Positions 16,623 through 50,267 of a DNA stretch of 64,000 nt are shown piece after piece. The position numbers and the translations under genes are program-made. The stretch is taken from IMG/VR virus record IMGVR_UViG_3300047409_000574, positions 1 through 64,000 of that record. The stretch is one strand, 5' to 3'. Source of the DNA: a virus. Position 1 is the first letter of the stretch. Each line of letters begins with the position of its first letter. A model generated the notes under the pieces. It ran no database searches. It had not been told where the DNA came from and worked only from the letters and a program-made list of their open reading frames with translations.

Positions 16623-17278
16623 TGAGTTCCTTCGCACAGGGCGGCGGCTACGCAGGCCCGGCCGGGCCTACCGGTGTGGCGGGGCCACCGGCGAGTTTCG
16701 GGTTGCGGTCTGCTCGTCCGGCGGCGAGCGCGGCGACCGGCCAGATGTTCTACGCGACCGACCAGGACGCCGTGTTCCTTTCGGACGGCACGACGTGGTT
16801 CCGTGTGGGTGTGCAGCCGGGGGACATTCTCTGGACGGCGGAGGCGTCGGCGCGCACCGGCTATCTGATCTGCACGGGGCAGGCGTGGCCGAGCACGACG
16901 GGCATCTACGCTGATCTGTTCGCGAAGTGGGGTGGTCTCTATCCGACGGTGCTGCCTGACTTGCAGGGCCGGTCGTTCGCCGCGAAGGGGACGCACGCCG
17001 ACATGGCGACGATCGGCAACAGTGACGGCCTGGCGGCGGCCAACCGGAGAACGAAGCACAAGCACACAGTGAACGAGGTGGCGCACGCGCACGCGACGCT
17101 GTACGGGAACGCGGGCGGCACCAGCACGCTTGGGAAGCCTGGCTCGACCGACCACGGCGAGTCGAACAGCTATAGCTCGCAGTCCGCTTCGACGGGGCTG
17201 ACGGTCGGCCCGCAGACTGGCGCGGAGCCGACTGATACGTCCGCGTACATCGTTCTTCAACCGCAGGTGAAACTTTGA
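16622..17278 (+). CDS. Tail collar fibre protein, copy 1
   Basis: 218 residues from ATG 16622 (TGATG). A short collagen-like start (AGPAGPTGVAGPP) is followed by a tail-collar domain: GDILWTAEASARTGYLICTGQ, TTGIYADLFAKWG, LPDLQGRSFAAKGTHAD, RRTKHKHTVNE and ending AYIVLQPQVKL. The H-x-H motif and the buried Gly-rich turn are typical of collar domains that bind metal and form trimers. It is a paralogue of the C-terminal half of the gene at 20292. Confidence 0.85.
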   Translation: MSSFAQGGGYAGPAGPTGVAGPPASFGLRSARPAASAATGQMFYATDQDAVFLSDGTTWFRVGVQPGDILWTAEASARTGYLICTGQAWPSTTGIYADLFAKWGGLYPTVLPDLQGRSFAAKGTHADMATIGNSDGLAAANRRTKHKHTVNEVAHAHATLYGNAGGTSTLGKPGSTDHGESNSYSSQSASTGLTVGPQTGAEPTDTSAYIVLQPQVKL

Positions 17279-20291: not shown

Positions 20292-21515
20292 ATGGAGAAC
20301 CGCACCTTTGCTTACAACGACAGATTTCCGGTCAGTTGGCCGGACACGTTGCAGGAGTTCATCTCGACGTTCGCCAGCAGCAACTTTCAGATCACGCTGG
20401 CGAGTCCGACGACGATCCAGGTTGTCGCGAGCGCGGGGAACGGGCTGGTCGGGATCGGGGTGGAGGGGAAGTGGCGGTACAACATCGCGACCGCTAACGC
20501 TGCGCATCCCGGCGGCGGAGCGGGCACCTACGACGTGTACGCGGTCGCGTCGGCGAACTCGTTCGCTGCGTCAGGGTTGCCGCCCGGCTCGAACCCGGAG
20601 GTGGACAACACCGACTACACGTTCGGCCTGGTGATTGTTGCCGGTGGGGCGGCGGCCCCGACCGGCACGTTCAACGGGCATGCGATTGCGCACACGCGCA
20701 AGGTGGCGACGCTCGCGTGGAGCGGGTCGGCGATCACGACGATCACCCACCTGGTCGGCCCTTACGCCGCGTCGGACAGCACCGTGATTCTGGACGGCTC
20801 GCTGACCCCGGCCAAGATCGCGGGGGTGGCGGTGGTGACCGGCGACTCGCGGCTGTCGGATGCGCGGGTGCCGGTGGCGCATGCTGCGTCGCATGCGCCG
20901 GGAGGCAGCGATCCTGTTGCCCAGAACAGTTACGGCACCTATGCGCTTCGTCCGGCGGCGGTGACAGCGTTGAATGGCTCGACCTACTACGCGATCGACC
21001 AGGACGCGATGTATCTCTGCGTGGCGGCTGCGTGGATCAGGCTTGGCGACAAGGCGGGCGACATTATCTGGACGGCGGAGGTGGCCGCACGGACGGGCTA
21101 CATCATTTGCGCAGGGCAAGCGTGGCCGGGCACGACGGGAATCTACGCTGACCTTTGGGCGAAGTGGGGGGCGCAGTATCCATCGGTGTTGCCTGACATG
21201 CCGGGCCGCACATTCGCGGCCAAGGGTACGCATGCTGATGTGGACACGATCGGCAAGACCGATGGCCTGGTGACCGGCAGCCGGAGGACGAAGCACAAGC
21301 ACACCGTTGTTCAGCCGACGATCGCGATGGGGCCGAACTCCGGCCGTGCGTTCGACCGCACCGGCCCTGGTACGGAAGATTCCGGCGGCGCGGCGATCGG
21401 CCAGCAAATCTTCCTGACCGCTACCGCTTCCGGTGGCACCGTCGGCCCGCAGACGGGTGCGGAGCCGATTGACACGGCTGCTTACATTGTTCTCCAGCCG
21501 CAGGTGAAGCTCTAG
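20292..21515 (+). CDS. Tail fibre with C-terminal collar domain, copy 2
   Basis: 407 residues. The N-terminal 200 residues form a beta-rich attachment region (FAYNDRFPVSWPDTLQEF). The C-terminal 170 residues repeat the collar domain of the gene at 16622: GDIIWTAEVAARTGYIICAGQ, TTGIYADLWAKWG, LPDMPGRTFAAKGTHAD, RRTKHKHTVVQP and AYIVLQPQVKL. Following the gp48-like gene, this is the best candidate for the main receptor-binding fibre, with the shorter copy as a second fibre or tip. Confidence 0.85.
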   Translation: MENRTFAYNDRFPVSWPDTLQEFISTFASSNFQITLASPTTIQVVASAGNGLVGIGVEGKWRYNIATANAAHPGGGAGTYDVYAVASANSFAASGLPPGSNPEVDNTDYTFGLVIVAGGAAAPTGTFNGHAIAHTRKVATLAWSGSAITTITHLVGPYAASDSTVILDGSLTPAKIAGVAVVTGDSRLSDARVPVAHAASHAPGGSDPVAQNSYGTYALRPAAVTALNGSTYYAIDQDAMYLCVAAAWIRLGDKAGDIIWTAEVAARTGYIICAGQAWPGTTGIYADLWAKWGAQYPSVLPDMPGRTFAAKGTHADVDTIGKTDGLVTGSRRTKHKHTVVQPTIAMGPNSGRAFDRTGPGTEDSGGAAIGQQIFLTATASGGTVGPQTGAEPIDTAAYIVLQPQVKL

Positions 21516-22779: not shown

Positions 22780-23793
22780 GTGGGCGCTACTGAGCAGGAC
22801 GAGGCCGGACAGGGCAGCCAGGAGGTCGCGGTTCGCGCGCCTGCGGCGACCCCGGCGAGGCCGCCGCTGCCGCTCTACAACGGCGTCATGTCGCCCGACC
22901 GGTGGACGATGCTGGGCCGGATCGCGACGACGACGGCCGACACGGATTTCGTGCCGAAGGGGTTGCGCGGCAAGCCGGGCGCGGTGATGGCGTGCCTGCT
23001 GTATGGCGACTCGCTGGGGCTGCACCCGTCGGTCTCGTTGACCGATGTGTATGTCGCGGACGGCAAGGTCGGCATCTCGGGTGCGTTGATGCTCGCGAAG
23101 ATCAGGGAGGCCGGGCACAAGGTCAAGTTCGAGACGTTGCGCGGCGAGGACGGCTCCTATGTCGGCTCGACGGCGAAGGGCTGGCGGCTGGTCGAGGGCG
23201 AGATCGTGGACGAGGACGAGTGGACGTACACGATGGAGGACGCCCGGCGGGCCGGTCTCTATCCGAACTCGTCGCCGAAGGCGGCGTGGATGAAGTCGCC
23301 GGAGGTGATGTGCCGTTGGCGGGCTGTCGCGCAGCTTTCGCGGTTCCTGTTCCCGGACGTGTTCCGGGGCGGCTCGATCTACACGCCGGATGAGGCGGAG
23401 GAGGTCGCCTACTCGGAGCGGATCAGCCGGAACGGGTCAGCGCCGGGCGCGGACGCGCCGCCTGCTGCCGAGTCGCAGGAGGGCGAGCCGGAGTGGGGCG
23501 ATGACCCGCTGCTGGCGGCGTGGCTGCTGGCGCTGTTCGCGCAGGCGAATGAGATCGAGGACGGGGTGTGGCTGCCGAAGAAGGTGAAGCTGGCGCTCAA
23601 GGGCCGGACGCAGCCGGAGCGGGAGGAGTTCGCGGTCGGTCTGGCGGCCTGGATCACCGAGCACGGCCAGGTGCCTGCGGAGCGGCCGGTGGAGACCGAG
23701 CAGGTCGCCGACGAGGATGTGGTGGTGCTCGACTTGCAGGGGGAGGCGGCGACGGAGGAAACGCTGATGGACGGGGCGACCGAACTCGACTAA
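22780..23793 (+). CDS. recT: RecT-like single-strand annealing protein
   Basis: 337 residues from GTG 22780, with AAGGAGG 9-15 bases upstream. Residues about 30-200 resemble RecT-family proteins of actinophages: PDRWTMLGRIATTTADTDFVP, VMACLLYGDSLGLHPSVSLTDVYVADGKVGISGALMLAKIREAGHKV (read in pieces) and CRWRAVAQLSRFLFPDVFRG. RecT anneals single strands during phage recombination. Its usual partner, a RecB-like 5'-3' exonuclease, is at 24478. The C-terminal third is acidic and low-complexity. An HNH gene sits between the pair. Confidence 0.8.
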   Translation: MGATEQDEAGQGSQEVAVRAPAATPARPPLPLYNGVMSPDRWTMLGRIATTTADTDFVPKGLRGKPGAVMACLLYGDSLGLHPSVSLTDVYVADGKVGISGALMLAKIREAGHKVKFETLRGEDGSYVGSTAKGWRLVEGEIVDEDEWTYTMEDARRAGLYPNSSPKAAWMKSPEVMCRWRAVAQLSRFLFPDVFRGGSIYTPDEAEEVAYSERISRNGSAPGADAPPAAESQEGEPEWGDDPLLAAWLLALFAQANEIEDGVWLPKKVKLALKGRTQPEREEFAVGLAAWITEHGQVPAERPVETEQVADEDVVVLDLQGEAATEETLMDGATELD

Positions 23794-23814
23794 CGTGGGG
23801 GTTGCGTCGCCCTT

Positions 23815-23846
23815 GGGCCGCCGGAGAGTTGCCACTCTGGCGGCCC
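23815..23846 (+). terminator. GC-rich hairpin after recT-like gene
   Basis: GGGCCGCC 23815-23822 pairs with GGCGGCCC 23839-23846, with AGAG/CTCT extending the stem inward. There is no U-run. It separates the recT-like gene from the following promoter, so it probably acts as a terminator or transcript-end stabiliser. Confidence 0.55.
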
Positions 23847-23872
23847 GATCTATGCTGTCCGACGCGGGGGTG

Positions 23873-23905
23873 TAGGCTCGTCTGGTTCCCGACCAGGAGA
23901 TGACA
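23873..23905 (+). promoter_or_regulatory. Promoter -10 and CCGACC leader of HNH gene
   Basis: TAGGCT at 23873-23878 in the context TGTAGGCT, then ten bases on TTCCCGACCAGGAGATGACA. CCGACC is at 23889-23894. The AGGAGA puts GTG 23906 at better spacing than the ATG at 23900. Confidence 0.5.
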
Positions 23906-24481
23906 GTGAGCGCAACGCCCGCTCCGCCGAAGGCAGAGTTTGACGACGCAGAGCTTGCTCGACGCTACCTTGCGGGAGAGCCTGCGGAAGCAATCGCTCG
24001 CAGTCTTGGCCGTAGCGGGAACGCTGTTCGTGCCCGGCTCAAAAAGCAAGGCGTGAGGGTGACTCCAGCGCGGCCAATGAAGCGGGAGCGTTACCGAGTC
24101 GAGGATCGCGGCTATGCCACGCCGTGCTGGACGTGGCTGCTCTCCAAGAACAACAAGGGCTACGGCCGCGTTGTTGTGCGTGGGCGCTTGCAACTCGCGC
24201 ACCGGCACTATCACGAGGAGAAGCACGGGCCGATCCCGGAGGGGTTGACGCTCGATCATCTCTGTCGCAACACTGATTGCGTGAACCCGGATCACACCGA
24301 AGCGGTAACGCATGCGGTCAACTGTCGGCGGGGCGCGGGGGTCAGGCTCTCGATGGAGACTGCGAATCAGATCAGGACGGCGAGGGCTGCCACGGGTGCG
24401 TCGTATCGTGCGTTGGCGGCGCAGTTCGACACTGACTACGGAACCGTGGGCCGCATCATCCGGGGGACGTTGTGGGCATGA
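23906..24481 (+). CDS. HNH homing endonuclease with N- and C-terminal HTH
   Basis: 191 residues from GTG 23906; ATG 23900 directly abuts AGGAG and is less likely. The N-terminus has a resolvase-like HTH (RRYLAGEPAEAIARSLGRSGNAV). Residues about 70-140 are the HNH core: PCWTWLLS, GYGRVVV, LAHRHYHEEKHG, LDHLCRNTDCVNPDHTEAVT. The C-terminus is another HTH (YRALAAQFDTDYGTVGRIIRG). It resembles the genes at 6035 and 44748. It splits the recT / exonuclease pair and carries its own promoter, as expected for a free-standing mobile endonuclease. Confidence 0.85.
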   Translation: MSATPAPPKAEFDDAELARRYLAGEPAEAIARSLGRSGNAVRARLKKQGVRVTPARPMKRERYRVEDRGYATPCWTWLLSKNNKGYGRVVVRGRLQLAHRHYHEEKHGPIPEGLTLDHLCRNTDCVNPDHTEAVTHAVNCRRGAGVRLSMETANQIRTARAATGASYRALAAQFDTDYGTVGRIIRGTLWA

Positions 24482-25794
24482 CGACGCCAGTCCCGTATCC
24501 CCGAGCGATGAAGAAGTACCCGGCGATCAGGCAAAGTTTGTTGTCTACCTTTGACGACTGCTCGCTACAGACCAAGTTCGAGATGGACATGCGACGTGGT
24601 TGGTCGTACTCGTACCAGGCGAGGGGAACTTTATTCCACCGCTTTGCAGCCGAAGCTCTCCGCACGATGGTCAAGCAGCAGGAGCCGCAGATTCCCGTGG
24701 AGGAGGCGCTGGAGATTCTACGTGAGGTGCTGGCCCAGCACAACGTGGATCGCGAGTGCCCGCATTGTGGCGGGACGCGGATCAGGCGGGGGATCACCAA
24801 GCGCGGGCTGCGGCTTTGTTTGACGTGTCGCAAGAGCTTCGAGACCGGCTGGATCACGGTGCCGTCCAACCACATCGCTGACCTCTACTGGGTGGTGGTG
24901 AAGTGGGCGCACGGGACGAGCTACGACGTGGCGAACGTGGTCGATGTGGAGCGTCGCCTGGAGGCTCGCATCTCCTACCCGAACCGTGTGCAGGGCGGCT
25001 GGGTGGAGCGCAAGCTGACCGGCAAGCTGGACGCGCTGCTGGTCGAGGGTCGCGATGACGAGCACGCGATCGTGCTCGACTGGAAGGACATGTGGAAGCT
25101 GCCGCCGGAGAAGGAGATCGACGACAAGGGCTACTTCCAGCAGCGCTTCTACGCCTACCTGATCTTCGAGAACTACCCGTCGGTCGAGCGGGTGACGTTG
25201 CGCGAGTTCTATGTGCGTTACGGCAAGCCGCGCGAGGCGACGATCACACGTGCGGTGATCGAGGAGGAGGTGCGGGCGGAGTTGTCGGCGCTGGTGGAGA
25301 AGTTCGACCGGGCGGTCGAGGAGCATCTCTGGAACGCGTCGCCGGGCGCGCATTGTAGTTATTGTCCGGCTCCGCATCGCTGCCCGATTCACCCGGAGGC
25401 GCGCGGGCATGGCCGGGCGACGACGCAGGCGGAGGCGGAGCAGGTGGCGGCCGAGTTCGTGGTAGCGTCGGCGATCGTGAAGCAAACACGGGAGGCTGCG
25501 GGGGCGTGGGCGCGTCAGCATGGGCCTATCCCGATCAAGGATGCGAAGGGCAAGCGGGTGCTCGGGTTCAAGGAGAGCACGCGGACGGAGCGGCCGACGG
25601 TGGAGGAGATAGATCAGCTTGGCCGGGAGCTTGGTCGTGCACCGACGCCGAAGGAGATCAAGGAGTTGTTCCACACCCGTACGTCAACGCTGTTGACGCA
25701 GTATGTTCCTTCTCGTGAGGAGCGCACGGAGCAGGATGATGCGTTGATCGAGTCGTTGCAGCGGAGCATCGACGAGGCGCGGTCGGTGGCGTGA
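24478..25794 (+). CDS. RecB-like PD-(D/E)XK exonuclease with zinc-ribbon insert
   Basis: 438 residues from ATG 24478 (ATGA overlap with the HNH stop). An N-terminal SLLSTFDDCSLQTKFE, then GTLFHRFAAEALR, LTGKLDALLVEG, AIVLDWKDM (the D-x-K core) and QQRFYAYLIFENYP are the ordered motifs of the RecB/Cas4/AddB nuclease family. A CPHCG ... CLTC zinc ribbon is inserted at about residues 98-120, and CSYCPAPHRCP near 300 resembles the iron-sulphur or zinc Cys cluster of this family. It probably resects double-stranded ends for RecT. Confidence 0.85.
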   Translation: MTTPVPYPRAMKKYPAIRQSLLSTFDDCSLQTKFEMDMRRGWSYSYQARGTLFHRFAAEALRTMVKQQEPQIPVEEALEILREVLAQHNVDRECPHCGGTRIRRGITKRGLRLCLTCRKSFETGWITVPSNHIADLYWVVVKWAHGTSYDVANVVDVERRLEARISYPNRVQGGWVERKLTGKLDALLVEGRDDEHAIVLDWKDMWKLPPEKEIDDKGYFQQRFYAYLIFENYPSVERVTLREFYVRYGKPREATITRAVIEEEVRAELSALVEKFDRAVEEHLWNASPGAHCSYCPAPHRCPIHPEARGHGRATTQAEAEQVAAEFVVASAIVKQTREAAGAWARQHGPIPIKDAKGKRVLGFKESTRTERPTVEEIDQLGRELGRAPTPKEIKELFHTRTSTLLTQYVPSREERTEQDDALIESLQRSIDEARSVA

Positions 25795-37393: not shown

Positions 37394-37963
37394 ATGGCGA
37401 ACCTAATCAATTCGGTCATTATTCAGGGGAATCTGACTCGCGACCCGGAATTGCGCTACACCCCGTCGGGTACGGCGGTCGCGAACGCGAGGATCGCGCA
37501 CAACGACCGGGTGAAGAAGGACGGCGTGTGGACTGACACGCCGTACTACTTCGATGTGACGATCTGGGGGAATCGGGGCGAGGCGTTCTGCCGGTTCTTC
37601 ACGAAGGGCAGCGCGGTGCTGATCCGCGGCCGGTTGACCTGGCGGGAGTGGGATTCGGAGAACGGCAAGCGCCAGCAGGTCGAGATCGTGGCGGACGACT
37701 GGTACTTCGTCGGCAAGAAGGGTGAGGGCGGCGGGACGACTGACCGGTACGACGGGGCGGACTACTCGCGCGGCGGGGATGGTGGCGGCCAGTACGACGT
37801 GGATGATCCGGCTGGCCCTCCTGCGACCGTTCCGGCGGGCGGGGACTTCGATGCTGACGGCGATGACATACCCTTCGCCCTTTTTGACATGTGCCCTCTT
37901 GACGGCGTAGTGTGGGCGCATGTCCGCCGGACGTGGCCGCCCACCAAGTTGCACCTGTGGTGA
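37394..37963 (+). CDS. ssb: Single-stranded DNA-binding protein with extended C-terminus
   Basis: 189 residues. The OB fold is clear: NSVIIQGNLTRDPELRYTPSG, AVANARIAHNDR, TPYYFDVTIWGNRGEAFCRF, KGSAVLIRGRLTWREW, VEIVADDWYFVG. A Gly/Asp-rich linker leads to DFDADGDDIPF at residues about 151-161, which is where bacterial and phage SSBs normally stop, with the acidic tip binding partner proteins. Here 28 further residues follow (ALFDMCPLDGVVWAHVRRT and so on), overlapping the start of an HNH gene. The insertion of that gene probably removed the original stop. Confidence 0.93.
   Translation: MANLINSVIIQGNLTRDPELRYTPSGTAVANARIAHNDRVKKDGVWTDTPYYFDVTIWGNRGEAFCRFFTKGSAVLIRGRLTWREWDSENGKRQQVEIVADDWYFVGKKGEGGGTTDRYDGADYSRGGDGGGQYDVDDPAGPPATVPAGGDFDADGDDIPFALFDMCPLDGVVWAHVRRTWPPTKLHLW
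37884..37913 (+). promoter_or_regulatory. Promoter of HNH gene, inside ssb
   Basis: TTGACA 37884-37889 and TAGTGT 37908-37913 with an 18-base spacer. Only six bases separate the -10 from ATG 37920, so the transcript would be leaderless. It lies in the sequence that extends SSB. Confidence 0.6.
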
Positions 37964-38387
37964 GTGCGCCAAGTGCAAAAGGCGGGTAGCTGCGCGTGAA
38001 GCGTATCGCGCTATGTCGCCGCAAGAGCGGAAGGACTGGGTTGCTCGGCGCGATCCCGAGAAGGTGCGTGCGGCTGATCGCGTTCGGTACAAGAAGGACA
38101 AGCCGAATCGTCGCAAGGCGATGGACGAGTACGCGGCGAGCAACCGCGAGCGCGTCAACGGCCACAAGAAGGCGTGGGTCGAGCGCAACCCGGAGAAGCA
38201 TGCCGCGCACGTCGCGGTCAGCAACGCGCTGCGCGATGGCAGGCTGGTCAAGGGGCCGTGCGAGCGCGCGTCCGAGGGCGGGTGTGGGCGGCGTATCGAG
38301 GCTCATCACGATGACTACGAGAAGCCGCTAGAGGTGCGCTGGCTGTGCTCGAAGCATCACGCTGAGACGCGCAAGAAGGTGGACTGA
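37920..38387 (+). CDS. HNH endonuclease
   Basis: 155 residues from ATG 37920. An N-terminal CTCGECAKCKRR zinc knuckle precedes a long charged helix (tandem AADRVRYKKDKPNRRKAMDE-type segments) and the C-terminal HNH: CERASEGGCGRRIEAHHDDYEKPLEVRWLCSKHHAE in pieces. HHxDY-type HNH proteins of this shape are frequent free-standing phage endonucleases. It overlaps ssb by 44 bases and has its own promoter there; its stop overlaps the next ATG. Confidence 0.8.
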   Translation: MSAGRGRPPSCTCGECAKCKRRVAAREAYRAMSPQERKDWVARRDPEKVRAADRVRYKKDKPNRRKAMDEYAASNRERVNGHKKAWVERNPEKHAAHVAVSNALRDGRLVKGPCERASEGGCGRRIEAHHDDYEKPLEVRWLCSKHHAETRKKVD

Positions 38388-40339
38388 TGGCTCGGGGCGT
38401 GCTGCATCTCGCGCCCGGCCTGAGCCTGCCGCTCGACGCGGTCACGCGCACGTTCGGCATCTTCGGGCAGCGCGGAACCGGCAAGTCCTCGACCGGCGCG
38501 GTGTTGATCGAGCAGAGCGTTCGGCTGGGCGGTCGGGCGGTGCTTCTCGACCCGACGGGAGTGCACTTCGGGCTGACGCGCGAGGGCACCGAGCCGGGCC
38601 TGCCGGGCGTCGTGCTCGGCGGTGAGCATGCAGATGCGCCGTTGGAGCCGCACGCCGGTGGGCTGGTCGCCGAGTTCGTGGTCGGCTCGGACTACCCGCT
38701 GGTCGTGCTCGACATGAAGCTGCTGCGCAAGCATCAGCGCCAGCACTTCGCGATGGAGTTGCTGGAGGCGCTCTACCACGACAACCGCGATCCGCTGCTG
38801 GTGGTGTTCGACGAGGCGGCGCAGTTCGCCCCGCAGCAGATGCGGGAGGGCGGCGAGGTGCCGCGTCTGCTCGGCGCGGTCGAGGACTTGGTCAAGCTCG
38901 GCCGGTCGCGCGGGCTGGGCGCGGTGATGATCGAGCAGCGCATCGCGACGTTGAACGCGAACGTGCGCGAGCAGATCGAAACGATGATCGCGCACCGGCT
39001 GGTCGGCCCGTTGGATCGCAAGGCGCTCAAGGAGTGGATCGCGGCGAACGGGGAGCCGGAGCGGGAGGCGGAGGCGATGGCGCTGGTGCCGAAGCTCGAC
39101 GCGGGCGAGGCGCTGGTGTGGTCGCCGTCGTTCCTCAAGTTCTTCGGGCGGGTGGCGATGAACCGGGCGACGACGTTCGACTCGCGGGCGACGCCGGAGG
39201 TTGGCAAGGCGCGCAAGAAGCTGACGGCGCGTGCGCCGGTTGATCTCGACGGGCTGCGTGTGCGGATGGCGGCGACGATTGAGGAGGCGGAGCGCAACGA
39301 TCCGAAGGTGCTGCGCTCGAAGCTTGCGGTGGCGGAGCGCAAGCTGGCCGACGTGTCGGCGCAACTCTCCGAGCTTCAAGCCTGGGCGGATGAACTCGGG
39401 AGGTCGGGTGGGGAGAGCGCGGCCGAGGAGGTCGTGAACGTCTACATGCTCGCGAAGCGCTACGTCGGGTTCTCCTGCGATCTCGTGGACGAGGTGCGTG
39501 CGCTCGGCGCGCAGAACGGCAAGCCGGTGCTCGACGAGGAGATGCTCAGGCTGCTGTTCGATCACGTGCGCGCCGTGGAGAACGCCGCCGACCGCACGAC
39601 CGAGGTGTACGAGAAGCTGCGCGAGGTGATGTACCCGCTCGCGTCGAACGTGAAGGATGCGCTGGATCGACATACACTCACCCAGTCTCGCCCCGCCGTT
39701 CCTTCGCGACTAAACGCCACGACACGGCGACAGCCGGAGCGTGAGGTCATTAGCCCAACGGCCCCTCGCGTAGCCCGGCCCGTGCCGGAGGCCGCCCATG
39801 ACAGGGGCGCGTCTGGCGGGGCGAGTACCTCTCTGACCGGCCCGGAGCAGCGGGTGCTCGACGCGGTCTACTGGTACGAGGCGCTCGGGATCATGCAGCC
39901 GACCCGGATCATGGTCGGCTTCATCGCGGGCTACCGGGTCTCGAAGAAGGGTGGCGGCACATTCTCGAACGTGCTGTCGGCGCTCAAGAACACCGAGGTG
40001 CCGCTGATCGACTATCCGGGCACCGGAGTGGTGGCGTTGACCGAGGCCGGGCGTGCGCTCGCGAACGATCCAGGGATCGAGGCGACGAACCGGGGCGTGC
40101 AGGAGGCGGTGCTGGCGCGCCTGGACGGGCCGGAGCAGCGGACGCTGCGCATCCTGATTGATCGCTGGCCGAATCCGTTGAGCCGGATCGACCTGGGCAC
40201 GGAGGCGGGCTACACGGTGACGGCGAAGGGCGGCGGGACGTTCTCGAACGTGCTCAGTCGGCTGCGCACGCTCGGTGTGATCGACTATCCCGGCACGGGG
40301 CTGGCGGTTGCAACCGAGGTGCTGTTCCCGTTAGGCTGA
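38387..40339 (+). CDS. HerA/FtsK-like ATPase with tandem C-terminal winged helices
   Basis: 650 residues from ATG 38387. Walker A GQRGTGKSS from residue 27, Walker B LLVVFDEAAQF (D142, E143), and the sensor region IEQRIATLNANVREQIETM, all as in HerA/TraG-type translocases. Residues about 285-330 form a coiled coil. The C-terminus has two related winged helices sharing GYxVxxKGGGTFSNVL and IDYPGTG. Bacterial homologues pump DNA in repair or conflict systems. In this phage it follows SSB, so a DNA-repair or end-processing role is plausible, not proven. Confidence 0.75.
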   Translation: MARGVLHLAPGLSLPLDAVTRTFGIFGQRGTGKSSTGAVLIEQSVRLGGRAVLLDPTGVHFGLTREGTEPGLPGVVLGGEHADAPLEPHAGGLVAEFVVGSDYPLVVLDMKLLRKHQRQHFAMELLEALYHDNRDPLLVVFDEAAQFAPQQMREGGEVPRLLGAVEDLVKLGRSRGLGAVMIEQRIATLNANVREQIETMIAHRLVGPLDRKALKEWIAANGEPEREAEAMALVPKLDAGEALVWSPSFLKFFGRVAMNRATTFDSRATPEVGKARKKLTARAPVDLDGLRVRMAATIEEAERNDPKVLRSKLAVAERKLADVSAQLSELQAWADELGRSGGESAAEEVVNVYMLAKRYVGFSCDLVDEVRALGAQNGKPVLDEEMLRLLFDHVRAVENAADRTTEVYEKLREVMYPLASNVKDALDRHTLTQSRPAVPSRLNATTRRQPEREVISPTAPRVARPVPEAAHDRGASGGASTSLTGPEQRVLDAVYWYEALGIMQPTRIMVGFIAGYRVSKKGGGTFSNVLSALKNTEVPLIDYPGTGVVALTEAGRALANDPGIEATNRGVQEAVLARLDGPEQRTLRILIDRWPNPLSRIDLGTEAGYTVTAKGGGTFSNVLSRLRTLGVIDYPGTGLAVATEVLFPLG

Positions 40340-40590
40340 CAAGGGTCGGGTGTTAGCTGGGGCGAGGCAGCACGGGCCGATCCCAGTTCTCCCCTAGTGA
40401 ACGGGGGAGGTAGGCCATGCGAGCCGCCCGAGGGTGTGAGGGTAGCTCCCTCTCGTGGCCGTCCCGGCGTGTCCGTGTCCTCGTCGCCGGGGCGGCGGCC
40501 TGTAAAGCCACCGGAGTTTGCTACCCCGTGCTACACTGAGCGCATGCGGCGGGCGTCTGTGCTCACCGCTTCCGACCTGGAGGTAGAGGA
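40340..40590 (+). other. Structured non-coding leader upstream of ku
   Basis: No credible gene. Contains hairpins CTCCCC/GGGGAG (around 40389-40408) and GAGGG/CCCTC (around 40432-40454), then the 19-base GTTTGCTAC element at 40507 and TACACT at 40532. The ku ribosome site GGAGGTAGAG is at its end. A GTG-started frame through it is rejected as a shadow of ku. Confidence 0.5.
40507..40537 (+). promoter_or_regulatory. GTTTGCTAC element plus extended -10 upstream of ku
   Basis: GCCACCGGAGTTTGCTACC 40507-40525, then TGCTACACT (TACACT 40532-40537), an extended -10. The element ends six bases before the -10, so a bound protein could block or activate polymerase. The 14 bases TGCTACACTGAGCG recur at 45381-45394. 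Confidence 0.6.
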
Positions 40591-41577
40591 ATGGCGAGCA
40601 CGATCAGGACGATCAAGCTGGTCTGCGGCGGACTCGCGTTCGATGTGGCGCTGCGTGGGGCGAGCGAGAAGCGGGATGTGACGCTCGACCGGGCGGCGGC
40701 GTCGTTCGTCGGTGGCTCGGAGGACGATCCCGCTGCGCTGGTCGAGGTTGCCAAGCGCATCTGCCGGATCGACGTGGTCGATCCCGGCCCGGACGCGGAG
40801 GGTCTGACGATCGAGCGGCTCTCTCGGAAGAAGGGCAAGATCGAGCAGCAGCAGTTCTACGGTGAGCCGCTGCGCGGGGTCTGGGACGGCGACGAGTTCC
40901 ACAAGATCGAGCCGGAGGAGATCGAACTGATCGACGACATGACCCGGCTCGACACACTCACCTTTCAGGAGTTCGTGCTGGCCGCCGACGTGCCGTGGGA
41001 GCGCGCGGTCGCGAGCTACTTCCTGCTCCCGGCGAACGGCACCGTGTCGGAGCAGACCAAGATGGTCACGCTGCGCGAGGCGATGGAGCGCCGGGGGGTG
41101 GTGGCGGTCGCGAAGCTGATGCCGAAGTCGCGGCAGAAGCTCGCGGTGATCTACCCGAAGCACGGCGGGCTGATGGTCACCTGTCTCGCCTACGCCGACA
41201 CGTACGCGCAGGTGCTCGACGGTGCCGCGTCGCTCGACGGGGTGGTCGTGCCCGACAAGGCGGTTGCGCTGGCCGAGCAGTTGATCGGCCTGATGCTCAA
41301 GCCCGCGTCGGTGCTGGACGAGTACCGCGACGATCTGATCGACCTCAAGGCTGACCTGGTGGAGCGCGCGAAGCTCGGCGAGCCGCTGGTCGATCCCGAG
41401 GTGGACGTGGACGTGGACGGCGACGAGGTTGCGACGGTTCCGGCTCCGACAGCGCTGGAGGACTTGCTCCAGGCGACGCTCGATGCGCTCAAGCCGAAGG
41501 TGGCACCGAAGAAGAAATCGACGGCGAAGAAGCCGTCTGTCAAGTCTCCCTCCAGGAGAACGGCCGCCACGAAGTAA
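40591..41577 (+). CDS. ku: Phage Ku protein (DNA end-binding)
   Basis: 328 residues from ATG 40591, preceded by GGAGGTAGAGG. The Ku core order is visible: GGLAFDVALRGASEKRDV at the N-terminus, IERLSRKKGKIEQQQFYGEPLRGV, FHKIEPEEIELIDDMTR, LTFQEFVLAADVPWERAVAS, SYFLLPANGTVSEQTKM, LREAMERRGVVAVAKLM, KLAVIYPKHGGLMVTCLAY. The C-terminus is a Lys/Ala/Pro tail of the sort that contacts DNA or LigD. Actinophages Omega and Corndog encode Ku used with host LigD to circularise short cohesive ends. No LigD is seen here. Confidence 0.88.
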   Translation: MASTIRTIKLVCGGLAFDVALRGASEKRDVTLDRAAASFVGGSEDDPAALVEVAKRICRIDVVDPGPDAEGLTIERLSRKKGKIEQQQFYGEPLRGVWDGDEFHKIEPEEIELIDDMTRLDTLTFQEFVLAADVPWERAVASYFLLPANGTVSEQTKMVTLREAMERRGVVAVAKLMPKSRQKLAVIYPKHGGLMVTCLAYADTYAQVLDGAASLDGVVVPDKAVALAEQLIGLMLKPASVLDEYRDDLIDLKADLVERAKLGEPLVDPEVDVDVDGDEVATVPAPTALEDLLQATLDALKPKVAPKKKSTAKKPSVKSPSRRTAATK

Positions 41578-41726: not shown

Positions 41727-42029
41727 ATGGCAGAGGATGAAGCCCCGGCGGAGGTGCCTGTCGCGCCGACCGGCCCGCCACCCAAGACGTTCGAGGTGGT
41801 GACGACCGCGCAGACCGAGCGCCGGTTCATCGTGCAGGCGAAGGACGAGGAGCAGGCGAAGGCGCGCTGGAAGGTGCACAACAAGGACTCGGAGACGTTG
41901 CGGGAGGGGATCGTTGTCGAGGCGGATGAGCAGATCGACACGACGCCCAGGCAGATCAGAGAGGTGCACCCTTATCCGAGGCCGCAGCAGCCGAGCGCGC
42001 CGACGACTCCGCGATCCAGGAAGAAGTAG
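41727..42029 (+). CDS. Small charged protein preceding Acb2
   Basis: 100 residues from ATG 41727. Pro/Ala-rich ends surround a central segment FEVVTTAQTERRFIVQAKDEEQAKARWKV that looks like a small folded helix-strand unit. C-terminus basic (TTPRSRKK). Not recognised. Its TAG overlaps the GTG of the Acb2-like gene, so the two are translationally coupled. Confidence 0.6.
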   Translation: MAEDEAPAEVPVAPTGPPPKTFEVVTTAQTERRFIVQAKDEEQAKARWKVHNKDSETLREGIVVEADEQIDTTPRQIREVHPYPRPQQPSAPTTPRSRKK

Positions 42030-42259
42030 TGGTGGAGAACCAGCACGAGAAAATCACCGGCTACCGTGATTTGTCCCAGGAGGAGATCGACTTGATGAAC
42101 GAGATCAAGGCGCTCGGCATTCAGGTCGGCGAGTTGGTTGAGAAGCTGCGCGAGTTCGCCGGTCTCGATCAGCGCTGGGTGAGCATCGGGCAGACCAACG
42201 TGCAGTTGGGGTTTATGGGCCTGGTCAGAAGCGTGGCGCAGCCGACCACGTTCGTCTGA
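42029..42259 (+). CDS. acb2: Acb2-type anti-CBASS cyclic-nucleotide sponge
   Basis: 76 residues from GTG 42029. HEKITGYRDLSQEEIDLMNE, IKALGIQVGELVEKL, DQRWVSIGQTNVQLGFMGL and VRSVAQPTTF reproduce the conserved order of the Acb2/Tad1 helical hairpin family, including the W-x-x-I-G-x-T and G-F-M-x-L-x-R-x-V-A-Q-P motifs. Acb2 hexamers bind the cyclic di- and trinucleotides made by CBASS, so the host effector is not activated. It is probably expressed early from the 41658 promoter. Cytoplasmic. Confidence 0.88.
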   Translation: MVENQHEKITGYRDLSQEEIDLMNEIKALGIQVGELVEKLREFAGLDQRWVSIGQTNVQLGFMGLVRSVAQPTTFV

Positions 42260-42332: not shown

Positions 42333-42950
42333 GTGACGACGAAGGGTGAGCCGAAGCCGCCGAAGAAGCCGACCGGCGCGCGCGGTGCGGGCAAGAGCAC
42401 GCGTCCTGCGCTGCCGTCCCGGAAGAAGCCCAAGTCCACCCTGCGTCGTCCCACGCTGGCCGAGGCCATCGCGCGCAACAGGAAGGTGGTCGAGTTACGG
42501 CTGATGGAGCACAAGACCTGGCGGCAGATCGCCGAGGAAGTCGGCGTGAACGAGATGACAGCCCGGACGGGCTACCGCACCTATGTGGAGGAGATCGCCC
42601 CGCTGATCGACTCGGAGGACGCGTTCGAGAAGGCCCGCGAGTTCCTGCTCAAGCTGGAGGGCATCCAGTCGAAGTTCGCGGCGGTGGCGGCCGGGTCGAA
42701 CCACGAGATGGTGAAGATCGCGGCGCTCCGCTCTCTGGTCGATGCGATGTGGAAAGAGGTGGAGCTTCGCCAGCATCTCGGGCTGCTGCCGTCTGACCTG
42801 GCCGGGCTGGCGGACGAGACCGAGGCGCGCTGGGTGGCCCAGCAGGTAGTCGCCCTGCTCAGGAAGTACGGCGCACCGCAGAAGGCAATCACCGAGCTTC
42901 ACGAGATCATGCGGGTGCCCGAGCCGCCGCGCGCCCTGTCGGCGGTCTAG
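42333..42950 (+). CDS. terS: Terminase small subunit
   Basis: 205 residues from GTG 42333. A basic, Pro/Lys-rich first 45 residues (KKPTGARGAGKST, SRKKPKSTLRR) lead into an HTH (VELRLMEHKTWRQIAEEVGVNEMTARTGYRTYV) and a helical oligomerisation region. This organisation and the position directly before the large subunit define TerS, which binds the packaging site and feeds DNA to TerL. The stop overlaps the next GTG. Confidence 0.85.
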   Translation: MTTKGEPKPPKKPTGARGAGKSTRPALPSRKKPKSTLRRPTLAEAIARNRKVVELRLMEHKTWRQIAEEVGVNEMTARTGYRTYVEEIAPLIDSEDAFEKAREFLLKLEGIQSKFAAVAAGSNHEMVKIAALRSLVDAMWKEVELRQHLGLLPSDLAGLADETEARWVAQQVVALLRKYGAPQKAITELHEIMRVPEPPRALSAV

Positions 42951-44764
42951 TGCCGGTCAAGCGGGTGGCGGTGCTCGACCGGCCGCTCGCGTTCCAGACG
43001 CGGCGCACCGGCCCGCGTGCGGCGTTGCGGAGCGAGACCGCGCCGGTGGAAGCACCGCAGGAGGAGAAGCCGCTCTCGTTCCTGGAGTGGTCGCGGCGTA
43101 TCCCGACGGCGAAGGGCAACCTACTCGACTTCGACCGGTTCCCGTTCCAGCCGGAGATGTATCAGGTGTTCGGCGACCAGGAGGTAAAGGACGCTGATCT
43201 GATGAAAAGCGTGCAGGTCGGCGCGTCGGAGATGCTCGCACGTCTGACGCTTTACTTCCCCGACACGCTTGGTTTGACGGCGTTGTACGTGTTCCCAGCG
43301 CTCAAACAGATGTACGACTGGAGCGACACTCGGATCAACCCGCTGCGCGAGCAGAGCAGCTATCTCCAGTCGCGCACGAAGCAGTTACCTGATTGGGCGT
43401 GGAACAAAGGCTTGAAACGCGTGGGCCAAGGATTTTGTGTGTATCGAGGCTCGGAGTCGAAGAATGATCTGATCTCGGTGGACGCCGACCTGGTCGCGAT
43501 GGACGAGTACGACTCGTTGCATCCGCCGAACATCCCGGAGGCGGAGCGCCGGATCAGCGGGTCGGCGTGGGGGCTGATCCGCCGGGTCGGCATCCCATCC
43601 GATCCCGAATATGGAATCGCGAAGCGCTACGCCGCATCGGATCGTCGCTCGTGGATGGTGAAGTGCGGATGCAAGGAGGGCTGGCAGCCGCTCGTGTTCT
43701 CCCTGAACGTGGAGTGGGAGGAGGACGGTGAGGCGATCGAGAACCCGCGGGTGGTCTGCAAGCGCTGCCGCAAGCCGCTCGACGTGCTCAAGGGGAAGTG
43801 GGTGAAGGAGCACCCGGATCGCTCCCGGCCGGGCTTCCATGTGCACCGGCTGATGGTGCCGGGCGAGCGCGGGTTGCGCGCGGTGATCGAGGCTTCCAAG
43901 CTGCGCGAGCCGCACTTGGTCAAGAGCTTCTACAACAATGATCTAGGGATGCCGCACGCCGACAAGACCGGCGGGCTGGATCGTGCGGCCATCGCGGCGG
44001 CGCTGTCGGCGGCGGAGTCGTTCTACGGCGGCCCGTTGGAGCAGGTCGGCGGCTACCGGGGGCCGAACTATGTGACGGCCGGTGTGGATGTGGCGAGCGC
44101 GCGCGCGTTGAGCGTGCGGATCAGCGAGCACCTCGACCCGTTCGAGGTGGTCGGGCATCGCAAGCGCGCGCTCTTTATCGGCGAGGTGGACAGCTTCAAC
44201 GATCTGCCGATGCTGATGGATCACTACGGCGTGCACATCATGGTGATCGACCATCTGCCGGAGATGCGGCTGGCGCTCGGGATGGCGGAGCGCTATCCCG
44301 GCCGCGTGTATGTGTGTCACTACTCGTCCAATCAGTTCGAGCCGCTCGTGCTTGACACTGAGCAGCGCAAGGTGAGTGTGCAGCGCACGCCGGTGATGGA
44401 TGCGGTGATCTCGGTGATGCGGGGGCTGCGTAACTTCCTCCCGGCGGACTTGCCGGTGAAGTACGTGGAGCATATGATCGCGCCGCGCCGGGTGATCGAA
44501 CGCGACGAGTACGACCGCACGACGGTGCGCTACGAGTCGAAGGGGCCGGATGATGCGTTCCACGCAGAGGTCTACGATCTGGTCGCCACCGAAGTTCTCA
44601 AGATCAGGATGGAAGTAGAAGCTGCGACTGCTGGCCCCGAGATCACGTCGTTGGACGACCAACTCGAATGGGAGCGGAGCAACGTAAACAGTCTGGACGA
44701 GATGGGGTATCGCGCTGGCCCCGACATGTCGTATCGTCCAGGCCCGGATGGCGACGGTTACTGA
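42950..44764 (+). CDS. terL: Terminase large subunit (GpA-like)
   Basis: 604 residues from GTG 42950. The N-terminal ATPase has the lambda GpA-type deviant Walker A LMKSVQVGASE near residue 83 and Walker B DLVAMDEYD (D185, E186). A zinc ribbon follows (KCGCKEG, VCKRCRK). The nuclease starts with Asp380 in AGVDVASARA and continues to VIDHLPEMRLALG and GPDDAFHAEVYDL. The segment ALSAAESFYGGPL just before the nuclease domain is copied in the LAGLIDADG gene at 31577. The protein cuts and pumps DNA into the head through the portal. Confidence 0.92.
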   Translation: MPVKRVAVLDRPLAFQTRRTGPRAALRSETAPVEAPQEEKPLSFLEWSRRIPTAKGNLLDFDRFPFQPEMYQVFGDQEVKDADLMKSVQVGASEMLARLTLYFPDTLGLTALYVFPALKQMYDWSDTRINPLREQSSYLQSRTKQLPDWAWNKGLKRVGQGFCVYRGSESKNDLISVDADLVAMDEYDSLHPPNIPEAERRISGSAWGLIRRVGIPSDPEYGIAKRYAASDRRSWMVKCGCKEGWQPLVFSLNVEWEEDGEAIENPRVVCKRCRKPLDVLKGKWVKEHPDRSRPGFHVHRLMVPGERGLRAVIEASKLREPHLVKSFYNNDLGMPHADKTGGLDRAAIAAALSAAESFYGGPLEQVGGYRGPNYVTAGVDVASARALSVRISEHLDPFEVVGHRKRALFIGEVDSFNDLPMLMDHYGVHIMVIDHLPEMRLALGMAERYPGRVYVCHYSSNQFEPLVLDTEQRKVSVQRTPVMDAVISVMRGLRNFLPADLPVKYVEHMIAPRRVIERDEYDRTTVRYESKGPDDAFHAEVYDLVATEVLKIRMEVEAATAGPEITSLDDQLEWERSNVNSLDEMGYRAGPDMSYRPGPDGDGY

Positions 44765-45368
44765 GCGGCTCTGGTCGAAGATCGACGTGCGCGGGCCGGA
44801 TGAGTGCTGGCCGTGGACGAGGGGCAAGACGAGCGCGGGTTACGGCCAACTGCGCGTGGCGGGGAAGTTGTTGTATGCGCACCGCCTGGTGAGCGAGGAT
44901 CGAGGGGGGCCGTTGCCGTCGAACGTGGTCGTGCGCCATTCGTGCGACAACCCTCCGTGCTGCAATCCGAAGCATCTTCTGCGTGGGACGCAACGCGACA
45001 ACGTGATGGACATGTTCGAGCGCGGACGCGCGAACCACACGACGCTACGCGGGGAGAAGAGCGGGACGGCGAAGCTCACCGCCGACCAGGTCATGGCCGC
45101 TCGACACGCGTATGCGTCCGGGGCGGCGACGTTTGAGGGACTGGCGGCGGAGTACGGCGTGGTTATGGCGGCGATGTGGAACGCAGTCAACGGCATGACC
45201 TGGTCGCACCTGCCGCTGGTGAAGCGGGCGACGAAGAAGCGAGGTCGGGGGCTGTGCGAGTGCGGGTGTGGCGCTCGTGCTCCGATCGCGAAGATGACGA
45301 ACACGAAGAAGGGTCACGTGCGCGGGAGGCCAGTCAGGTTCATACGCGGCCACCATGCTCGACACTAG
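44748..45368 (+). CDS. HNH endonuclease next to terminase
   Basis: 206 residues from ATG 44748, overlapping terL by 17 bases. HNH core: CWPWTRG, GYGQLRV, LLYAHRLVSEDRGG, VVRHSCDNPPCCNPKHLLRGT, NVMDM; then an HTH (LTADQVMAARHAYASG, FEGLAAEYGV) and a C-terminal CECGCGAR knuckle. It belongs to the same group as 6035 and 23906. HNH proteins beside terminases can be needed for cos cleavage (HK97 gp74 type), so either packaging or homing is possible; the family resemblance to the scattered copies favours homing. Confidence 0.82.
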   Translation: MATVTERLWSKIDVRGPDECWPWTRGKTSAGYGQLRVAGKLLYAHRLVSEDRGGPLPSNVVVRHSCDNPPCCNPKHLLRGTQRDNVMDMFERGRANHTTLRGEKSGTAKLTADQVMAARHAYASGAATFEGLAAEYGVVMAAMWNAVNGMTWSHLPLVKRATKKRGRGLCECGCGARAPIAKMTNTKKGHVRGRPVRFIRGHHARH

Positions 45369-45388
45369 CCATCATCGTTTGCTACACT
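45359..45388 (+). promoter_or_regulatory. Promoter with GTTTGCTAC element
   Basis: TCGACA 45359-45364 and extended -10 TGCTACACT (TACACT 45383-45388), spacer 18. The -10 is built into CATCGTTTGCTAC (45373-45385), so a protein binding that element would cover the promoter. Drives the unit starting at 45432. Confidence 0.6.
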
Positions 45389-45431
45389 GAGCGGGCACGT
45401 GTGTGTAGTCGAGCGACTGGAGGTAGAGACC

Positions 45432-47815: not shown

Positions 47816-48022
47816 GTGGGCGGCTCGATGACGACCGTGCCGAAGAAGCGGGTGATGGTGCCCGTGCCCGGCATGTACCTGACCGACGGAGTTGTGCTGG
47901 TCGAGTGCGTGTTGAAGCAGCGCAACGGCTGGCAGGTCGCAAACGTTGTGACTGATGCGCGTGAAGTGATCTCGCTTGCTCATCTCGCGAACTGGCGGGA
48001 GGTGACTCCGAGTGCCGCGTGA
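47816..48022 (+). CDS. Small hypothetical protein before portal
   Basis: 68 residues from GTG 47816 (an in-frame ATG is at 47828). KRVMVPVPGMYLTDGVVLVEC, then NGWQVANVVTDAREVISLAHLAN, suggests a small SH3-like barrel. Overlaps the portal start by eleven bases. Confidence 0.55.
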   Translation: MGGSMTTVPKKRVMVPVPGMYLTDGVVLVECVLKQRNGWQVANVVTDAREVISLAHLANWREVTPSAA

Positions 48023-50267
48023 TGGCCTGCTCGGCAAGACGCTTGACAGGCTCGAAGAACTAACTGGGCTGACTGTCGTAGATGGTGACTACCTGCGCGT
48101 GCAGGAGGCCGTCGCGAGCGAGGCGATGGTGCTCGCGCAGGAACTCGACGAGGTCGGCTACACCTGGATGGGGTTCAACCAGGGCAGGCAGAACGAGGTA
48201 TCGGCTGTCACCCGTCGCCGGTGGGCGCAGCAGGCCCGGATTGTCTGGCAGGCCGACCCGCAGGCCGGGGCCGCGGTCGAACTACTCAACGAGTTCTCGC
48301 TCGGGCGCGGGGTGCCGAAGCCGCGCGCGAAGGACGACGAGGTGCAGGAGGTGATCGACGAGTATTGGGACGACCCACAGAACCAGCGGGTGCTGACCGG
48401 TTACGCGTCGCTCGTCAAGCTCGGCACCTCGCTCTCGATTCAGAGCAACGTGTTCCCGCTCGTGTTCGACGACGGCGACGACGGCAAGGTCAAGTTCTCG
48501 TTCCTGAACCACGACACGGTCGAGTCGGCCTACACCGATCCGCTGAACCGGCAACGGGTGCTGTTCTATCTCGCGCGCAAGCATGAGGGCGAGTGGGACT
48601 TCCTGACCAACACGTGGAAGCCGGTGAGCCGACCGGACAAGCTCCTCTACTACGAGAACTGGGGGGCGCTGCACGAGGCGCTGGTCGAGCGCGGCGAGGA
48701 CACCGACGAGGCGAAGGACTGGCTCGACAAGCTGCGTAAGAAGGTTGCCGGAACGGAGGAGGTGGACAGCGAGTACGCCTACGGGCAGCCGGGCGAGGAG
48801 ATCGACGCGATGGGCACCGGGCTGATGCTGCCGCCCTACAACCGCTGGGGCGAAGGCAAGGTCTACCACCTCGCCGAGAACCAGGACATGGAGATGATCT
48901 TCGGCGTGCCGCGCATGCGCCGCACGATCCGCTGGTACACCGCCTACAACGACTTTATGAAGGCGCGGGTGGACATGGCGATGGGTGCCGCTGCGTTCCT
49001 CGCGCAGAAGAAGATTAAGGGCAGCCCCCAGGCGATGGAGAAGATCGCGCAGCGCGCGACCCGTGCGGTGTCTGATCTGCGCGCGACGATCGACTCGACA
49101 CTGATCGGCGGCGAGGAGGTGAAGCAGGGGCCGCGCCCGGCGTCGTTCGCGACGATGACCGATTCGGTCACGTTCGAGCCGCTCAACCTGAACTCGGGCG
49201 CGGGCAACGCGCTGACCGACGGGCAGATGCTTCGCGCGCAGGTGTCGGCCGGTGACCGCTGGCCGCAGCATTACCTGGGCGATGTGGGGAGCGCGAACCT
49301 GGCGACCGCGACCTCGATGGAGCTTCCCGCGCTCAAGCATGTCGAGGCGCGCATGGAGGTGCTGGAGAATCTGTTGCGCTTCGGGATCGACCGGTCGATC
49401 GAGCGGGCGGTCGAGGTCGGTCGGCTCGACCCGAACGTGGACACGACGACCGACGAGAACCCGAAGCCGGAGGAGCTTGTCGATCAGACCGGCCCGTACG
49501 TGAACGAGTCGCTGTACGAGGTGCTGGTCGAGTCGGCGCAGATGATGTGGCGCTCGCGCGGCAAGGACGTGATCCGGCCGACGATGGTGCTGCGTCACCT
49601 GGAGACCGGGCTGCCGGAGTTCGTGCTGCTACGGGAGGCGCACGAGGATCGGCAGGACGACGAGCAGGACACCGGCCGTGATCTCTCCTACGAGTTCGGG
49701 ATGCCGTCACCGTTGCGCCGGACGATGGGCGACGTGGTGACGGCGGTCTCCCAGCTTGCGACGATGGCCGACCCGAACGGGCTGAACGTCGAGTTGACGC
49801 GCACGCTGTTGACCTACGCGTTCGCGCAAGGGCTGGAGATGCAGGACGCATCCGATGTGGTCGATGCGATCTTCCCGGCCGACTACAACCCGATGGCGGC
49901 GATGCAGGCGATGCAGGGCGGCGCGCCGCCGGGTGCCGCGCCTGATCCGTTCGCGCCGGACGCGACGAGTCAACCGGCCGATCCGAACAATCCGTACAGC
50001 GCGCCCGCGCAGGCGACTCCGCCGGAACAGGTGCCGCTGAACGAGGCGGGGGTGGTTGGTTACGACCGGCTGGGGGAGCCGATGATCCTGTTGCCGGGCC
50101 GGGCGCGGGTCGGCCAGACTCCGCTCGGGATTGATGCGGCCAAGCGTGCCCGGCAGGCTGGGCTGGACGCGTTGTTCACGGCCGAGACACGGGGGGCGAC
50201 GATGGAGGCGCTTGCGGGTCTGACGATGAACCGGCTGGTGGACGAACCCACAAACGGCGACCACTAG
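48012..50267 (+). CDS. Portal protein
   Basis: 751 residues from GTG 48012. Characteristic segments: RRWAQQARIVWQADPQAGAAVELL, FKFS/SFLNHDTVESAYTDPLN, NRWGEGKVYHLAENQDMEMIFGVPRM, DFMKARVDMAMGAAAFLAQKK, then TFEPLNLNSGAG and GDRWPQHYLGDVGSAN. The C-terminal 120 residues are Pro/Ala/Gln-rich and acidic. It forms the dodecameric vertex through which terminase pumps DNA. The order TerL - (HNH, unknowns) - portal - MuF protein is usual. Confidence 0.88.
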   Translation: MPRDGLLGKTLDRLEELTGLTVVDGDYLRVQEAVASEAMVLAQELDEVGYTWMGFNQGRQNEVSAVTRRRWAQQARIVWQADPQAGAAVELLNEFSLGRGVPKPRAKDDEVQEVIDEYWDDPQNQRVLTGYASLVKLGTSLSIQSNVFPLVFDDGDDGKVKFSFLNHDTVESAYTDPLNRQRVLFYLARKHEGEWDFLTNTWKPVSRPDKLLYYENWGALHEALVERGEDTDEAKDWLDKLRKKVAGTEEVDSEYAYGQPGEEIDAMGTGLMLPPYNRWGEGKVYHLAENQDMEMIFGVPRMRRTIRWYTAYNDFMKARVDMAMGAAAFLAQKKIKGSPQAMEKIAQRATRAVSDLRATIDSTLIGGEEVKQGPRPASFATMTDSVTFEPLNLNSGAGNALTDGQMLRAQVSAGDRWPQHYLGDVGSANLATATSMELPALKHVEARMEVLENLLRFGIDRSIERAVEVGRLDPNVDTTTDENPKPEELVDQTGPYVNESLYEVLVESAQMMWRSRGKDVIRPTMVLRHLETGLPEFVLLREAHEDRQDDEQDTGRDLSYEFGMPSPLRRTMGDVVTAVSQLATMADPNGLNVELTRTLLTYAFAQGLEMQDASDVVDAIFPADYNPMAAMQAMQGGAPPGAAPDPFAPDATSQPADPNNPYSAPAQATPPEQVPLNEAGVVGYDRLGEPMILLPGRARVGQTPLGIDAAKRARQAGLDALFTAETRGATMEALAGLTMNRLVDEPTNGDH

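Follow-up and report, generated by a model that had tools for sequence, protein, structure and literature searches.

A very divergent bacterial-type Ku encoded close to the terminase genes of an uncultured tailed phage

INTRODUCTION

What use does a phage make of a Ku protein, and does the presence of a ku gene reveal how the ends of the phage genome are formed? Experimental knowledge of phage Ku reportedly comes from two mycobacteriophage groups with 4-base ends, in which the protein is said to be tied to circularisation of the genome. From the ku gene studied here the original prediction was that its phage, too, has short overhang ends, or else needs end protection. Phage Ku being already known, what is new in the present case is the great divergence of the protein, a terminase that falls on the side of the SPO1-like phages, the lack of a ligase and an altered LigD-docking motif. 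Our analysis suggests that the presence of Ku is not enough to predict cohesive ends for a phage.

THE PHAGE RECORD

The window, that is, the whole stretch of DNA analysed, comprises the first 64 kb of an IMG/VR record of 126,255 bp; coordinates refer to the window unless the record is named. The record has a GC content of 66.7%, and its called genes lie almost all on the + strand. It belongs to a tailed phage, whose structural genes include those for a contractile-tail sheath, a portal (48012-50267) and a protease/major head protein. Its DNA metabolism genes include RecT, a PD-(D/E)XK exonuclease, RusA, a single-strand DNA-binding protein (SSB) and a DnaC-like loader. Neither a PF01068 ATP-dependent ligase nor a LigD primase-polymerase domain was found in the whole record, which encodes a single Ku across its full length and so shares with the Omega and Corndog type the possession of a phage Ku without a phage LigD. 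No relatives with a matching gene order were found, absence from these searches being no proof of rarity; single-sequence pattern searches with Ku and with the large terminase subunit (TerL), and a Ku-pair pattern search of genome contigs, likewise yielded no relative.

THE KU GENE AND ITS PRODUCT

The gene and the parts of its product are as follows.

40591..41577, + strand: ku gene, ATG start, 328 aa (Pfam, PHROG, leave-one-out profile, AlphaFold2/Foldseek)
40591..41376, + strand: Ku core of beta-barrel, bridge and core helices, residues ~1-262 (HMM for residues ~105-262; AlphaFold2 secondary structure and PDB matches)
41455..41490, + strand: position of the minimal C-terminal (LigD-docking) helix, residues 289-300, LEDLLQATLDAL (alignment column counts; helix predicted at 289-300)
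41491..41574, + strand: extended basic tail, residues 301-328, KPKVAPKKKSTAKKPSVKSPSRRTAATK (sequence)

That the phage encodes a Ku was borne out by sequence profiles and by the predicted fold. The product matches the Pfam Ku family PF02735 over residues 105-204 with 52.7 bits, about twofold above the curated cut-off of 25, and PHROG 4873 ('Ku-like') with an E-value of 3.5e-4. A leave-one-out profile, built from 98 other Kus with the present protein excluded, gave 60.3 bits, with an E-value of 1.8e-17 over the 1782 six-frame ORFs of the record, and matched no other of these ORFs. Chance was ruled out as the source of this match, since 0 of 1000 shuffled copies was reported at E <= 10 with the same profile. 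Only Ku families in Pfam and PHROGs matched the protein; the Gam family of Mu Gam-type end protectors did not.

An AlphaFold2 model made from an alignment of 54 sequences (53 other Kus and the ku product) has a pLDDT of 74.5, with 107 residues at or above 90; folding from the single sequence gave a pLDDT of only 40. The best PDB matches of the model in Foldseek, which include B. subtilis and M. tuberculosis Ku, are the bacterial Ku-DNA structures 9vnq, 8v53 and 9i91 (E 5.6e-13 to 1.8e-10, probability 1.00), with a TM score of about 0.7 by target length and the complete Ku core fold present in the model. Because the alignment consists of other Kus, the model and the sequence match are not independent lines of evidence. 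The near complete Ku core originally proposed thus stands at the level of predicted structure; by sequence, clearly recognisable Ku is confined to residues ~105-262 (HMM), and the model has a low-confidence insertion at residues ~35-90. The N-terminal strand pair is also unusual, reading CGGLAFDVAL in place of the FGLVNVPVKL of other Kus.

Taken together, sequence and model confirm the product as a real, very divergent bacterial-type Ku. Its tblastn search of 50,697 phage records returned no match, its terminal branch in a quick tree measures 7.7 changes per column, and it is extremely divergent from every cellular Ku found; divergence on this scale makes an altered function possible. The long ORF is intact despite this divergence and its codon usage is fully phage-like (rank 46 of 50 long genes), both signs of a gene that is maintained.

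THE C-TERMINUS AND LIGD DOCKING

The Lys-rich tail that had been noticed is there, at residues 301-328, and residues 296-328 have a pI of 11.4, giving the protein the basic extended C-terminus of bacterial Kus of non-homologous end joining (NHEJ). The docking helix before it is altered. In the alignment of 54 Kus, the near-invariant docking columns among the 53 besides the present protein are D (49/53), L (49/53), L (51/53) and S (52/53). The phage protein keeps D291, L292 and L293, with Thr and Ala replacing the Leu conserved in 51 and the Ser conserved in 52 of the 53. Accordingly the regular expression D-L-[LM]-x-x-L-x-x-S, matched by 49 of the 53 others, is not matched by DLLQATLDAL, where a shift of one residue could regain the Leu but would still leave the Ser missing.

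For B. subtilis and P. aeruginosa the minimal C-terminus of Ku is reported to be enough for LigD interaction, and in M. tuberculosis Ku changing either D250 or S258 to alanine lowered LigD affinity modestly (PMC9638933). Since the effect of S258A was modest, the lost Leu and Ser would weaken the use of LigD without excluding it; recruitment of LigD by the phage Ku is plausible, and less strongly indicated for its degenerate docking motif.

THE KU NEIGHBOURHOOD

The genes and elements around ku to which we refer below are these.

22780-23793, + strand: RecT-like annealing recombination gene (within 22780..25794)
24472-25794, + strand: PD-(D/E)XK exonuclease (within 22780..25794)
37394..37963, + strand: SSB (Pfam)
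38387..40339, + strand: HerA-like ATPase (DUF87 + HerA_C, Walker A GQRGTGKS), immediately upstream of ku
40497..40541, + strand: promoter-like element ahead of ku, AGTTTGCTA-N4-GTGCTACACT, with 62 bp between its core and the start codon
41727-42029 and 42029-42259, + strand: two small ORFs between ku and the terminase genes (ORF calls)
42333..42950, + strand: helix-turn-helix protein, probable small terminase subunit (TerS), overlapping the terL start (domain matches; position)
42950..44764, + strand: TerL, gpA type (Pfam, PHROG, tree)
45348..45392, + strand: next copy of the promoter-like element, beyond the terminase genes, bounding the presumed ku-terS-terL unit

The 45-nt element, as AGTTTGCTA-N4-GTGCTACACT or a near variant, occurs in 10 copies in the record, all on the + strand and 36-130 bp ahead of start codons (positions 40529 and 45380 of the window; 66712, 82150, 86328, 103438, 106600, 117632, 118455 and 121843 of the record). 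Of these copies, nine are clear of called genes and the tenth is within a called ORF, in its 3' end; on the minus strand even the top score is far lower. As the element profile was trained on its own copies, cleaner evidence comes from the exact core, which has 7 matches, all on the + strand and each close upstream of a gene start. The exact core was absent from about 480 kb of cellular DNA, and so gave no hint of the host, and scans for Rfam families, sigma-70 promoters and terminators gave nothing useful. We predict the element to be phage-specific and promoter-like. It is often followed by a hairpin and GTGTGTAG ahead of the ribosome-binding site, possibly marking a regulon with a shared leader.

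Because the next copy stands past terL, ku probably heads a transcription unit with terS, which begins 0.76 kb from ku, and terL. Among 80 TerL relatives, neither Ku nor a counterpart of this HerA gene was found in flanks of up to 10 kb, and a search for HerA in 396 actinobacterial genomes gave one partial match.

TERMINASE TYPE AND GENOME ENDS

TerL has a GpA_ATPase domain (Pfam, E 4e-22) and belongs to PHROG 675. Its relatives in known phages are those of SPO1-like phages, Lumi, Lana and Achromobacter phage 2-1, at 20-28% identity. In a quick tree a branch with support 93 parts it, together with the SPO1-like, Lana and Lumi proteins, from lambda and Vibrio phage PS15B.2, placement within its side being loose. 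Two of these relatives have direct terminal repeats in their records, with identical start and end: 2298 bp in Lumi and 1542 bp in Achromobacter phage 2-1. The Troll record has no end repeat within the 12 kb compared, so for the SPO1-like phages long repeats are taken from the literature, in which such a relative, a Bastillevirinae phage, is described with long terminal repeats (PMC10043171).

In the present record, bases 1-126 recur exactly, six bases before the record end. Its position inside one continuous, open reading frame, and its stop at a short coding repeat for Lys-Pro-Ala that shows a difference of 3 bp, led us to reject it as a true terminal redundancy and to regard it as a likely assembly overlap. 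With the overlap inside coding sequence the physical ends are not visible in the record, which is probably a closed assembly. The kinship of TerL, a kinship at low identity, points towards terminal redundancy or long direct repeats.

The expectation of short overhang ends therefore found no support in a gpA-type TerL, two of whose relatives have direct terminal repeats of 1.5-2.3 kb in their records. The precedent behind it holds, in that the ends of Corndog are 4-base 3' extensions and the phage apparently recircularises by NHEJ (PMC4351075, PMC3706429). It is the step from Ku to cohesive ends that lacks support, Ku being present in unrelated phages too, some with a ligase of their own, so that Ku alone is no predictor of end type.

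The closest TerL found (36% identity) is encoded in an actinobacterial genome (G054, contig C57, 57516-59183) that has two Kus of its own, and weakly suggests an actinobacterial host. That TerL, also gpA-type, is isolated among cellular-looking genes and may be a prophage remnant or a domesticated gene.

KU IN OTHER PHAGES

In an annotated phage collection, searches with three query Kus returned, bar one record, only mycobacteriophages, most of which belong to the Omega and Corndog clusters. This exception, MT838252.1 (L008), deposited as 'Bacteriophage sp.', was set aside as an apparent bacterial fragment, its Ku grouping within Intrasporangiaceae. A Ku of Streptomyces phage BillNye is named in the literature (PMC11936186) and was not seen in our searches of that collection. 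In IMG/VR, profile-guided scans turned up Ku in 13 further uncultured viral records, some of which may be prophage or host fragments. Three of the 13 also have an ATP-dependent ligase domain: 20 bp after ku in G001 (L011), about 4.6 kb away in G002 (L012; a 458.7-kb record) and about 3 kb away in G007 (L198). Clear head or tail genes are present in two of the three, G001 having portal, tape-measure, SbcCD and HerA-like ATPase genes, and G007 TerL, portal and head genes. Some phages thus carry Ku alone and others Ku plus a ligase, and the association of Ku with ligase in these three records indicates that a phage Ku is able to act in end joining. Together with the present case it also makes the use of phage Ku a testable question, with circularisation, break repair and end protection as the candidates. 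Phage Kus do not form a single clade in a quick tree, and the ku neighbourhood of the present phage is not repeated in the other Ku phages.

Phages of the Omega cluster (cluster J; Omega gp206, Baka gp210, WXIN) resemble the present phage in having a single phage-borne Ku, in lacking a PF01068 ligase (Omega record) and in genome size (106-115 kb, here 126 kb). They are, however, siphoviruses with a different TerL type, whereas the present phage is contractile-tailed; the TerL of WXIN has no Pfam match at E <= 0.01, as against GpA_ATPase here, so a common packaging-motor family is not indicated. Their Kus are about 17-20% identical to ours in alignments, and the Lsr2-like C-terminus of cluster J Ku (PMC3706429) contrasts with the Lys-rich tail here. 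Close to ku, WXIN and Baka have an FtsK-type translocase, the present phage a HerA-type one.

In the Corndog cluster (cluster O; Corndog gp87, Ryadel gp91) Ku, 18% identical to ours, lies among DNA-metabolism genes with no ligase annotated beside it and with a ParB-like gene upstream, where the present phage has the HerA-like ATPase. Corndog represents a phage group of about 70 kb with 4-base 3' extensions, and appears to recircularise via NHEJ (PMC4351075).

The closest relative found is the Ku of G001 (26-30% identity, E 7e-14). The two share the motif LAEQLIG and both genomes have a HerA-like ATPase; G001 differs in its ligase just after ku, its SbcCD and its canonical docking motif DLMSVLTAS. 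With the cellular Kus of M. tuberculosis and B. subtilis the phage protein shares the core fold, C-terminal helix and basic tail, and it departs from cellular Ku in the missing docking Leu and Ser, the altered N-terminal strand pair and the insertion at residues ~35-90.

A translocase of the HerA/FtsK superfamily stands close to ku here (38387-41577) and in two Omega-cluster phages (L010, 4492-6870; L102, 6001-9188), and ParB is upstream of ku in Ryadel and L011; such proximity of translocase or ParB may be coincidence.

PROPOSED ROLE OF KU

We propose that an end-binding Ku protects and rejoins phage DNA ends together with a host ligase, as a rescue function and not for obligate circularisation, a reading that we put at an even chance. 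A Ku of the bacterial homodimeric type would thread onto, or bridge, double-strand ends of the phage genome. Since neither an ATP-dependent ligase nor a LigD polymerase domain was found in the phage, a host enzyme, be it LigD or a different ligase, would have to seal the ends. Expressed alongside the terminase genes, Ku would most likely shield and rejoin ends that arise in infection, the candidates being incoming genome termini, cut concatemers and breaks introduced by host nucleases. In a phage with long terminal repeats, the genome could circularise by homologous annealing through RecT and the exonuclease, which would leave Ku to rescue and protection instead of the obligate joining of 4-base sticky ends. 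What the analysis shows is the gene, its predicted fold, its neighbours, the element ahead of it and the outcome of the ligase search; that the protein binds DNA and dimerises, when it acts, with which host partner and on which type of end, and what its biological role is, we infer.

This reading draws on the Ku fold, the lack of a ligase, the placement of the promoter-like element, and the C-terminal helix and basic tail with its D-L-L, which sit where bacterial Ku contacts LigD and DNA (PMC9638933); it draws further on the grouping of TerL with long-repeat phages and on the presence of RecT, exonuclease, SSB and RusA. Against it stand the lost docking Leu and Ser, the great divergence of the protein and the want of a relative with the same gene order.

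A possible but doubtful alternative is that Ku acts in protection only, capping ends in the manner of Gam against RecBCD, AddAB, AdnAB or defence nucleases with no ligase as partner. The absence of a ligase from the record, the loss of LigD-docking residues from a protein that keeps the core fold, the HerA-like ATPase adjoining ku and the SSB gene nearby are in keeping with capping, but the protein still has a C-terminal helix and a basic tail that capping would presumably not need. More tentatively still, a Ku that has lost the canonical residues for LigD docking, and is produced together with the terminase, could be a dedicated end-capping or end-handling factor in a packaging cycle with long terminal repeats; if true, this would be Ku acting in a phage without LigD and without the joining of cohesive ends.

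We regard it as unlikely that Ku has the role proposed for Omega and Corndog, in which short (about 4-base) cohesive virion ends are joined on entry by Ku and host LigD. The confinement of Ku records in the annotated collection to mycobacteriophages, mostly of these two clusters, apart from the mislabelled bacterial fragment, would fit it, as would the 4-base 3' ends and NHEJ of Corndog (PMC4351075) and an actinobacterial host, itself in line with the high GC and with a TerL relative from a genome with two Kus. The TerL here is, however, of another type, with known relatives bearing long direct terminal repeats, the contig is assembled through every position, the LigD motif is degenerate and Ku occurs in several other kinds of phage. 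Less likely again is a role linked to packaging, in which Ku, made with the terminase, would manage the cut ends of concatemers by holding or protecting the end that each packaging cut leaves, or by rejoining miscut DNA: ku seems to head the terS-terL unit between the elements at 40529 and 45380, and lies 0.76 kb from terS, but that unit is read from sequence, and the ku neighbourhood differs in other Ku phages. That ku is a recently captured host gene with no phage function is very improbable, for all that Ku occurs widely in Actinomycetota and that the Kus of phages are not one clade, given its extreme divergence from cellular Kus and its intact ORF, and the phage-typical codon usage and promoter-like element of its own on which we rejected both a broken gene and a recent host capture.

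OTHER FEATURES OF THE RECORD

A giant ORF of 5245 aa begins at 50917, fills the window to 64000 and runs to 66654 of the record. It has intein-like, 2'-5' RNA ligase, ART-PolyVal and LPD1 domains and is a 'polyvalent protein', a kind thought to be injected along with phage DNA. A GroES co-chaperonin (Cpn10, E 4e-25) is encoded at 69012-69296 of the record, and a second ORF, at 76280-76651, is GroES-like by eye; a LAGLIDADG-domain ORF at 69907-71886 of the record is possibly an intein or homing endonuclease insertion. Within the window, diverged direct repeats, about 77% identical, pair 16750-17067 with 20987-21304 and 15148-15296 with 16149-16297; they sit in the tail/fibre region and suggest duplicated segments of tail proteins.
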